Shown in pieces: positions 45,069-47,162 of a stretch of DNA of 64,000 nt. The stretch is from Psychrobacter sp. 5A.1 (GTDB taxonomy: Bacteria; Pseudomonadota; Gammaproteobacteria; Pseudomonadales; Moraxellaceae). Location: assembly GCF_030407455.1 (NCBI RefSeq), contig NZ_JASDDJ010000004.1:1-64000 (forward strand), in the 5' to 3' direction. A program made the translations under genes and the position numbers. The notes beneath the pieces were generated by a model. The model was given only the letters and a program-made list of their open reading frames with translations. It did not search any database and was not told the DNA's origin. The stretch's first letter is position 1, and every line of letters begins with the position of its first letter.

Positions 45069-45316
45069 TTTCATTACTAATTACTTTCTTATAGTTATAA
45101 AATATTAGCCACTTTTTCATATCGTAACGAATGTTATGGTAAATAATGGTTCCCTTGTGAGGACTTGAATATTCGGCTGTAAGCTACGAATACAAGCGGT
45201 TTTGCTCACTGAAATAGTCCCAGTGTACTTCGTTGTGTACATGCAGTGAGCTTTTAAATCATTATTCTTGTTTACTATAAGAGCTTTTATGCGGAGTATT
45301 GTGTAAAGATGTTTGC

Positions 45317-45466
45317 TTATAAACAAACACCAGTTTTCTCTGCTGCATAAGTAGCTTCATCCTTTGTGTATTCTTGAACTTCACAAAGTTGGTTTATTAG
45401 ACCCTTATATGAGTAAGCATAATATTCAAGATGGTCTTTAGCTGATCTTACCGCTTGTTCTACCTA
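45317..45466 (-). pseudogene. Third Ltp repeat beyond an amber codon
   Basis: In the same frame after TAG (45464-45466) the minus strand codes VEQAVRSAKDHLEYYAYS, then KGLINQLCEVQEYTKDEA, then a natural stop at 45317. The TAG stands exactly where the other repeats have Trp (TGG) in DIDWVEQAV. A single G-to-A change explains it. Confidence 0.8.
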
Positions 45467-46960
45467 ATCTATATCCAAACTATCTACTGCCGTTTTGGCC
45501 TCATCTTTTGTATACTCTTGAATCTCATAAAGCTGCTCTATCAAACCCTTACGTGAATAGCTTGAATATCTAAGGTCATCCTTAGCTGATTTTACCGCTT
45601 GTTCTACCCAATCTATATCCAAACTATCTACTGCCGTTTTGGCCTCATCTTTCGTATACTCTTGAATCTCATAAAGCTGCTCTATCAAACCCTTACGTGA
45701 ATAGCTTGAATATCTAAGGTCTTCCTTAGCCGACCTAGAAGCGTTGGTTTCTGCCTTAGTCATATCAAACTTAGATGTACCGCTCGAAGGTTGTGGTTTA
45801 GCTTTTGGCCTAGTCATATCAAGCTTAGATGCACCACTCGAAGGTTGTGGTTTAGCTTTTGGCCTAGTCATGTCAAGCTTAGACGGGCTGTTTAAAACTT
45901 TAGACTCAGAAGATCTTTGGTCATTCATAGTAGGTAGTGGGGGTGGTGTTTCAGGTACTGGCAGCGCCTGTTTAAGTGATGTACGTTCAGGTGCACTATG
46001 ATTTAAAATCTTCGAGCCTTTTGAACGATTACACTTCCAGCATAATGTCTGTAAATTATCCTTAGATGTAACCCCCCCTTTAGAAAGAGGAATAATATGA
46101 TCAATTTCTAACAATAAATTAGGTTCATCTTTTGTTGAAAGACCACAAGCTTGACAAGTATAACCATCTCTAGTTTTTATTTCTTCTCTTAGCTTGGTAG
46201 TCATCAATGCCCTCTGCCCAGCAACACTATCTCTAAAACTTACTAAGTCAGCTAGATATACTATAAATTCTTCAAGTTTAGTGATATTAAATTCTATAGA
46301 AGTACTAAACCTACTATTGCCACCAGCAGAGACATATTGAAAAGTATAAACAGGAAAATATAATTTAGCTAAGCTGACTCGCTTTAAACCTAGCTCTTCA
46401 TTAATTCTATCTTGATGATGACGCTGCAAAAAGGAGGGAATAGAGTTACGTATTTCAAATAAGATAGCGTCCCTTTCATTAGCTAAGAGATACTTACCTT
46501 GCTCTGCAGCAGCAAAGTTATTCAAAGCTTGTTCAAACTTATCTAAAGAGTCTTTATTTGGACTAACATTAAAATACTTACAGAAGTACTTAAAAGGTTG
46601 ATCATCAGCACTCTTTGCAACAGACGAGGAACAGCGATAAGTTCTGCTATCTTTCATTGCACCAGCCCATTTAGGTCTATTCATATTGTAACGACTACTA
46701 TCGGTTAAGTCTGCTTCGCCATAGTTTGTAGAGGCTACATCAGAATAACTATACTTCAAATCTTCAATATGATCGTTTAGATCATTACACTCAGCAACAT
46801 GCTGCTGAACAGTATTCTTAATCGCAGTAAAGCTATCACTTTTAAAATAAGCATTTAACAATAGAGGGTAAATATAATGATATAAAAATGCTACTAAAAG
46901 ACCAAATAGGCAGAAATACGTAAGCAACTCAAAAGCAGACAAGTTTAACAAAGCATCCAA
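45464..46960 (-). CDS. Membrane-anchored HNH endonuclease with Ltp-type repeats
   Basis: A 498-residue protein with no exact family known to me. One N-terminal membrane helix (LLTYFCLFGLLVAFLYHYIYPLLL) is followed by a helical region with scattered Cys. A complete HNH nuclease lies near residues 265-313: CQAC, LEIDHIIPLSKGG, DNLQTLCWKCNRSKG, the four Cys forming a zinc site. Next come 18-residue repeats (SKLDMTRPKAKPQPSSGA) and two 48-residue repeats (SYSRKGLIEQLYEIQEYTKDEAKTAVD) of the Ltp/host-cell-surface lipoprotein type. A TAG interrupts a third repeat; without it the protein would have about 547 residues. Anti-phage function is inference from the domain mix. Confidence 0.75.
   Translation of the reverse strand: MDALLNLSAFELLTYFCLFGLLVAFLYHYIYPLLLNAYFKSDSFTAIKNTVQQHVAECNDLNDHIEDLKYSYSDVASTNYGEADLTDSSRYNMNRPKWAGAMKDSRTYRCSSSVAKSADDQPFKYFCKYFNVSPNKDSLDKFEQALNNFAAAEQGKYLLANERDAILFEIRNSIPSFLQRHHQDRINEELGLKRVSLAKLYFPVYTFQYVSAGGNSRFSTSIEFNITKLEEFIVYLADLVSFRDSVAGQRALMTTKLREEIKTRDGYTCQACGLSTKDEPNLLLEIDHIIPLSKGGVTSKDNLQTLCWKCNRSKGSKILNHSAPERTSLKQALPVPETPPPLPTMNDQRSSESKVLNSPSKLDMTRPKAKPQPSSGASKLDMTRPKAKPQPSSGTSKFDMTKAETNASRSAKEDLRYSSYSRKGLIEQLYEIQEYTKDEAKTAVDSLDIDWVEQAVKSAKDDLRYSSYSRKGLIEQLYEIQEYTKDEAKTAVDSLDID
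45467..45740 (-). repeat. Tandem 144-bp repeats coding Ltp units
   Basis: Two almost identical 144-base units (48 codons, junction at TGG 45608-45610) lie in tandem, differing at only a few bases. A third, diverged unit follows beyond the amber codon. The near identity suggests recent duplication. Confidence 0.85.
45754..45885 (-). repeat. Tandem 54-bp repeats
   Basis: Two full copies of an 18-codon unit (SKLDMTRPKAKPQPSSGA) and a partial third (SKFDMTK) form a linker between the HNH domain and the Ltp repeats. Confidence 0.85.
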
Positions 46961-47162
46961 AGTATTCCCCTAACATGCATACACAAAACACGATATGATA
47001 ACCTAGCCAAATAGCAACCCTTATAAAAAGCTGTTGCCTAATCTAAGCTTACCCAGTAAAAGTTTAAATTTTATACGATTCTTTATAATTATTGTAGTGG
47101 TTTGATGAACAGTAAACAGATTAACCAAACTAGACCACTAAACGATTAATATCTACCAACGG

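Follow-up and report, generated by a model that had tools for sequence, protein, structure and literature searches.

What is the function of a solitary gene that lies between a lysR-type gene and crcB in Psychrobacter sp. 5A.1 and encodes a membrane helix, a nuclease and Ltp-type repeats in a single product? A preliminary description, made from the sequence alone, had proposed a candidate defence gene for a membrane-held HNH nuclease that could cut DNA as it enters. We analysed the gene in its window (the whole stretch of 64,000 nucleotides) together with its relatives, and the following features were assigned in window positions.

45464..46960, minus strand: whole gene (helix, conserved region, HNH, linker and two Ltp repeats), 498 aa, TTG start
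46886..46942, minus strand: N-terminal transmembrane helix, aa 7-25, by hydropathy
46211..46849, minus strand: conserved region, aa 38-250, without a Pfam match, from the 59-row alignment A2
46013..46156, minus strand: HNH nuclease, aa 269-316, by Pfam profile and alignment A2
45757..45883, minus strand: linker, containing a 54-bp tandem repeat, by tandem-repeat analysis
45620..45751, minus strand: Ltp repeat 1, 22.9 bits alone, slightly under the cut-off (the whole protein is above it)
45476..45613, minus strand: Ltp repeat 2, 32.2 bits
45341..45460, minus strand: Ltp repeat 3, 29.2 bits, above the cut-off, past the in-frame stop at 45464-45466

The union of an N-terminal helix, a zinc-type HNH nuclease and C-terminal Ltp repeats in one protein, as first described, was borne out by hydropathy and profile searches. 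The 498-aa protein has a single hydrophobic helix (aa 7-25, mean Kyte-Doolittle value 1.98), at which no lipobox was seen by eye. Its HNH domain matched PF01844 (E = 1.6e-14, 54.2 bits versus a cut-off of 21.4), and the kinship of the repeats with Ltp held in the whole-protein search against Pfam (PF07553, E = 1.7e-10, 41.3 bits versus a cut-off of 23.2). No Pfam family was found for aa 38-250, where the motifs include QPFKYLCKYF, YVSAGGNS and GQRALMT. The best PHROG matches of the protein were to superinfection exclusion, through the Ltp part, and the same search returned many HNH matches. The Ltp part (aa 404-498) is acidic, with a net charge of -8; the closest solved Ltp chain was PDB 4eqq, aligned to aa 405-495 (E = 4e-4).

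The Ltp tandem has a 144-bp unit (97% matches, score 558), and that of the linker a 54-bp unit present 2.4 times (score 226). Ltp units 1 and 2 share 93.8% of their DNA, which fits a recent duplication, and match unit 3 at 60.0% and 63.7%; the recent amplification claimed earlier is in keeping with this for units 1 and 2. The feature had also been drawn as far as 45317. Since the gene stops at 45464 and repeat 3 lies beyond the in-frame stop, that end overshoots. In this one assembly the frame stays open for 48 more codons after the stop at 45464-45466, covering repeat 3, which is probably not translated with the gene. The ORF was, as reported, more AT-rich than its neighbours (GC 0.367 versus 0.48 for lysR and 0.505 for crcB, with 0.43 for the window), and 4.5% of 626 segments of ORF length had a GC as low or lower.

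Among genome contigs we found 131 relatives, and the best 80 of these were used for the family analysis. Within these 80, the common part was aa ~13-319 (the core) and not the Ltp tail, and a match through residue 498 occurred at the P. aestuarii locus only. Best-segment core identity among the best 80 of 131 was 33-62% (35-38% in Actinomycetota), and their phyla were Bacteroidota, Bacillota, Pseudomonadota, Fusobacteriota, Actinomycetota and others. With our own ORF counted, 75 of 87 ORFs end no more than 20 aa after the HNH domain, so the Ltp tail is an add-on; tails longer than 40 aa were present in 12 of the 87, seven from Psychrobacter and five from elsewhere. When tails and extensions of 10 proteins were scanned, Ltp was found in three, all from Psychrobacter, SHOCT in the tail of a Clostridia protein (L042, 27.3 bits versus a cut-off of 27) and a zinc ribbon, below the cut-off, in L059; nothing Ltp-like was found in the long tails of L048, L060 and L079. 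TM-HNH-Ltp proteins of the kind first described therefore exist in Psychrobacter, but Ltp is missing from most of the family.

The core itself is well conserved at its key positions. Seven residues of the HNH domain (C269, C272, D287, H288, N302, C307 and C310, forming CxxC, DH and CxxC) and four of the unnamed region (Y209, S211, Q249 and R250) are invariant in the 59 rows of A2, and most relatives with a complete N-terminus have one or two N-terminal helices. As judged from these alignments, the family is a helix, an unnamed conserved region and an HNH domain, spread over several phyla and with variable tails. The biggest cluster of neighbouring genes covers 11 of the best 80 of 131 loci, and no recurrent partner gene was found among them. 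In a Clostridia branch (L092-L113, 15 members aligned) the core is preceded by some 250 additional residues, in which a similar Y..AGNN motif was recognised by eye; this stretch is perhaps an internal duplication of the unnamed region.

Within the genus, some match was found in 28 of 105 Psychrobacter genomes, mostly to the HNH or the Ltp part alone. The core was present in eight of the 105 and Ltp repeats in 11. Both occur together in seven genomes, namely our own, G001, G005, G020, G029, G041 and G046; the core and the Ltp part of G020 are in separate frames, and the G046 Ltp part is found mostly at the beginning of a different contig. G102 has the core without Ltp, so that the tail is absent there and interrupted in our own gene and G020, while in G009, G014, G028 and G077 Ltp occurs solely in short proteins resembling the one of phage Psymv2. 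Only one of 398 sampled Pseudomonadota genomes, our own, had a match at 1e-30; set beside the wide range of phyla, this patchiness suggests horizontal spread.

We then compared the interval from lysR to crcB in 16 of the 104 crcB-matching genomes, comprising nearest relatives, other core-bearing genomes and a few more. The HNH gene was in none of the 16 stretches fetched, which agrees with its patchy presence (core in 8/105 genomes); presence or absence at this site had been named earlier as a check. The site was empty in four (33-79 bp between the genes), and 12 held other sequence of 541-3009 bp. Across the window interval 45069-47162 and L158-L173, the site looks like a hotspot whose cargo differs between Psychrobacter species; by eye, we take the cargo ORFs to be serpin-like, patatin-like, SEL1-repeat, GNAT-like and lectin-like proteins, and the neighbour labels DUF262 and TIR are likewise our presumption. 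The lysR-crcB interval is a general accessory cargo slot. The preliminary description had drawn on a lone gene between crcB and metR (the latter a name that we assume for the flanking lysR-type gene); that position was seen, but because the slot is general it gives no argument for defence.

For an indication of topology, charges flanking the membrane helix were counted in the 59 rows, a crude method that gave C-in for 31, N-in for 12, ties for eight and too short a sequence for eight, with the Psychrobacter rows mixed. A cytoplasmic nuclease is favoured by this count, and C-in, if right, would place both the HNH domain and the Ltp repeats on the cytoplasmic side. For the short Ltp proteins of Psychrobacter (that of Psymv2 is one), inspection by eye suggests N-in/C-out: the helix is preceded by MKK and followed by an acidic spacer.

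Relatives were also found on mobile elements. Viral contigs gave 42 matching loci, 35 with a match across most of the core; 27 were non-redundant. We scanned 115 of the 186 listed neighbours, from 26 of the 27 non-redundant loci; among these 115, two repressor families matched 14 and 11 proteins, a regulator family 14, two integrase families 10 each and a metallo-protease family, presumably ImmA-like, five, in PHROG sets that overlap. Integrases were called with an iterative HMM, which replaced an over-strict regular expression (6/27 viral, 2/58 and 0/21 genome loci). By this call an integrase-like gene was nearby at 11 of 27 viral loci versus 10 of 79 genome loci. Taking all of these loci (27 viral and 79 genome) and treating neighbours as independent, integrase-like genes made up 9 of 202 first neighbours versus 6 of 675 genes at least four genes away (p = 0.002). 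A few loci of the viral and genome sets, L084 and L234 among them, look like one contig counted twice, so the integrase counts are not fully independent. The relative in an M. abscessus prophage, gene 29, lies antisense to the structural genes, and two hypothetical genes follow it on its own strand. The Psymv2 Ltp gene (L119 4863-5348) is located between head-closure and tail genes and not in a lysogeny module.

Further relatives were found on mobilizable or conjugative plasmids, on mobilizable ones near replication and mobilization genes, and the Psychrobacter plasmid pA18BP2 carries an Ltp-tailed relative. For the plasmid relative (L114 1322-1406), annotated as 'Ltp family lipoprotein', the start was placed at an ATG that leaves out the membrane helix; by eye, an in-frame TTG further upstream would restore it. 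A PH-domain protein is encoded convergently to the HNH gene on pA18BP2 (L114 3138-3653) and in G005 (L120 6213-6683), and at 60.5% identity between the two PH-domain proteins, the PH-domain gene and the HNH gene may travel as a pair. On a Vagococcus plasmid (L117 135-9355) the core gene is flanked by two IS1216 copies, with optrA further along.

Defence genes adjoin several of the Psychrobacter copies. In G020, G041 and G046 the HNH gene lies downstream of zorC-zorD. PADLOC identified ZorA1, B1, C1 and D1 in G041, with the ZorA stretch cut by the end of the locus, and tblastn matched the G041 ZorC and ZorD in G046 and G020; in G020 both zorD and the HNH-Ltp gene are in broken frames. The three neighbourhoods may represent one inherited island. 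In G029 the next gene encodes a type IV restriction enzyme, and SspE/HEC-06-like and WYL proteins lie further along. ZorC was found in 15 of 105 genomes (two matches are partial, one of these a broken fragment), in five of the eight core genomes versus 10 of the 97 others (p = 0.0013; p = 0.026 once two likely copies of one island were dropped). The HNH gene was ruled out as a Zorya subunit, the core being missing in 10 of the 15 ZorC genomes and ZorC unmatched in three of the eight core genomes; ZorC1 had no match in our own genome. In G098 and G017 (L260, L262) the gene downstream of zorD matches restriction-enzyme models (PADLOC, one protein each), which suggests an exchangeable defence slot; by eye we take both genes to be McrBC-like. 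Across 141 of the 285 neighbour proteins collected from genome loci, tallied per family and with the 76 of the Clostridia branch set aside, HTH regulators numbered seven, integrases five and GNATs four, PDC-S02 occurred in two, and defence families were scattered. This broad picture is weaker for defence than that in Psychrobacter. Settings that fit defence were nonetheless present: relatives were located in lysogeny regions of phages, on plasmids and, within Psychrobacter, in defence islands.

The closest precedent in layout is SNIPE, described in the available text of its paper as a membrane-bound nuclease with DUF4041 and GIY-YIG that cleaves DNA during injection, has a tested N-out/C-in topology and associates with tape-measure proteins, probably via DUF4041 (PMC13190303). 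Judged against that text, our protein shares an N-terminal membrane helix, a middle region and a C-terminal nuclease, its family is likewise patchy and widespread, and the C-in topology shown for SNIPE is the one that the crude charge count favours here. In contrast to SNIPE, the nuclease is HNH and not GIY-YIG, and DUF4041 had no match in our protein in Pfam up to E = 1. SNIPE membership had been considered since both appeared by eye to contain a QR..R motif; it was dismissed because neither DUF4041 nor GIY-YIG is present and hhalign of A2 against eight SNIPE homologues gave a probability of 0.3%, that is, no homology. Two of the eight came from genome loci and six from plasmids, since viral-contig scans for SNIPE homologues gave only one and two loci. 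The word 'HNH' does not occur in the available part of the SNIPE text (PMC13190303), and our literature search, which covered few subscription papers or preprints, found no published description of a membrane-HNH defence family. SNIPE (PMC13190303, as available) thus supplies a precedent for the proposal that a nuclease at the membrane cuts incoming DNA, but the outward-facing Ltp which that proposal implied is at odds with the C-in charge count.

Ltp of phage TP-J34 is, in the accessible text, a superinfection-exclusion lipoprotein acting outside the membrane; its gene lies in the lysogeny module, and its repeats are reported to act on tape-measure proteins through acidic residues (PMC3952083, citing Bebeacua 2013). 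As far as that text goes, our protein resembles it in its acidic tandem PF07553 repeats and the spacer to a membrane anchor. It differs in having no lipoprotein anchor that we could see, in the nuclease between anchor and repeats, in the predicted position of the repeats on the opposite side of the membrane from that in the same partial source, and in its own location between lysR and crcB rather than in the lysogeny module described there; core relatives on viral contigs, near repressors and integrases, come closer to that setting. ZorE, in the available description an HNH nickase of type II Zorya that ZorAB recruits to act at the membrane (PMC11890865), shares the HNH domain, and three relatives of our gene adjoin Zorya. 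These neighbours are of type I (ZorC, ZorD), however, and our protein has its own membrane helix; identity with ZorE was rejected at 12.9 bits versus a model cut-off of 600. PtuB-type and restriction HNH proteins (PADLOC, best 2e-9) have the HNH domain in common, with matches that span little beyond it. Pneumococcal CbpL, as far as its accessible text describes it (PMC5137146), likewise carries a C-terminal Ltp module after a linker and is not a lipoprotein; it is, unlike our protein, a cell-wall choline-binding protein, and the same accessible text contains no word for nuclease.

From the domains, conservation and contexts that the sequence supplies, we infer compartment, target and cutting. 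Our preferred reading, to which we give a probability of about 0.5, is a solo, mobile anti-phage nuclease that would cut phage DNA at entry in a SNIPE-like manner. On docking of a tailed phage, the conserved middle region would engage its tape-measure protein or the entry pore, as would the acidic Ltp repeats in Psychrobacter; the incoming DNA would then be nicked or cut by the HNH domain. The action would resemble that of SNIPE with an unrelated nuclease and middle region, and prophage copies would provide superinfection exclusion. This model of a tethered nuclease at the injection pore draws on the SNIPE precedent, the tape-measure link of Ltp and the acidic repeats (net -8), and the mobile-element and defence-island settings of relatives support an anti-phage role. 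A wider claim can be advanced only tentatively, with the odds somewhat against it: that this is a widespread, unnamed family of membrane-tethered HNH proteins, independent of SNIPE in origin and carried as solo genes in prophages, plasmids and defence islands, which cut phage DNA at the entry pore, use place and the phage's injection protein to distinguish self from non-self, and in Psychrobacter have captured a tape-measure-binding Ltp array as an exchangeable targeting tail.

Against the preferred reading, the gene could be a decaying accessory in this strain, its core perhaps still working while the Ltp array is being lost and has no present role. The in-frame stop before repeat 3, the break between core and Ltp frames in G020, the TTG start and the AT-rich ORF all point that way, yet the core frame is open, its invariant residues are kept, two complete repeats are left, and a plasmid relative seemingly starts with TTG too; we give decay a minority chance, worth keeping in mind. 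Far less plausible is a free-standing homing or selfish nuclease hitchhiking with mobile elements. HNH nucleases are common in phages, and PHROG returned many such matches, but most members have a membrane helix and a long conserved stretch, and their tails vary, features that are hard to reconcile with it.

The model implied by the preliminary description was classical superinfection exclusion, in which the C-terminal part is periplasmic, Ltp blocks the tape measure outside and the HNH domain cuts in the periplasm. It accounts for the Ltp profile match, for the PHROG link to superinfection exclusion and for the N-in/C-out look of short Ltp proteins such as Psymv2's; the excess of C-in over N-in rows (31 versus 12 of 59), the lack of Ltp in most of the family and the unseen lipobox make it improbable. 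About equally improbable, in our judgement, is a barrier to any incoming DNA, whether by plasmids, conjugation or transformation, which plasmids and phages would carry without phage specificity. Mobilizable plasmids with relatives near replication and mobilization genes, and the copy between IS1216 elements, would suit such a barrier, whereas viral-contig loci near repressors and integrases, the Zorya neighbours and the link of Ltp to tape-measure proteins, as the available text has it (PMC3952083), speak for a phage target.

The notion of nucleases that act at the entry site is very recent (SNIPE, 2026). If the preferred reading is true, a second, unrelated nuclease family shares the same layout, and cutting at the injection pore would have evolved more than once; superinfection-exclusion proteins would also be tied to nuclease defence, some members carrying a tape-measure-linked domain. 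How specificity may vary in nature is suggested by the tails, which differ between members: Ltp, SHOCT (one Clostridia protein) or a weak zinc ribbon (another).

Beside the gene, the intergenic segment 45120-45260 contains an element with hairpins (DNA fold z of -3.0 for 45150-45260), which matched at seven places in our own genome, its own copy counted. The lysR-downstream sequence holding this element was present at nine of the 12 cargo-bearing sites and at none of the four empty ones.
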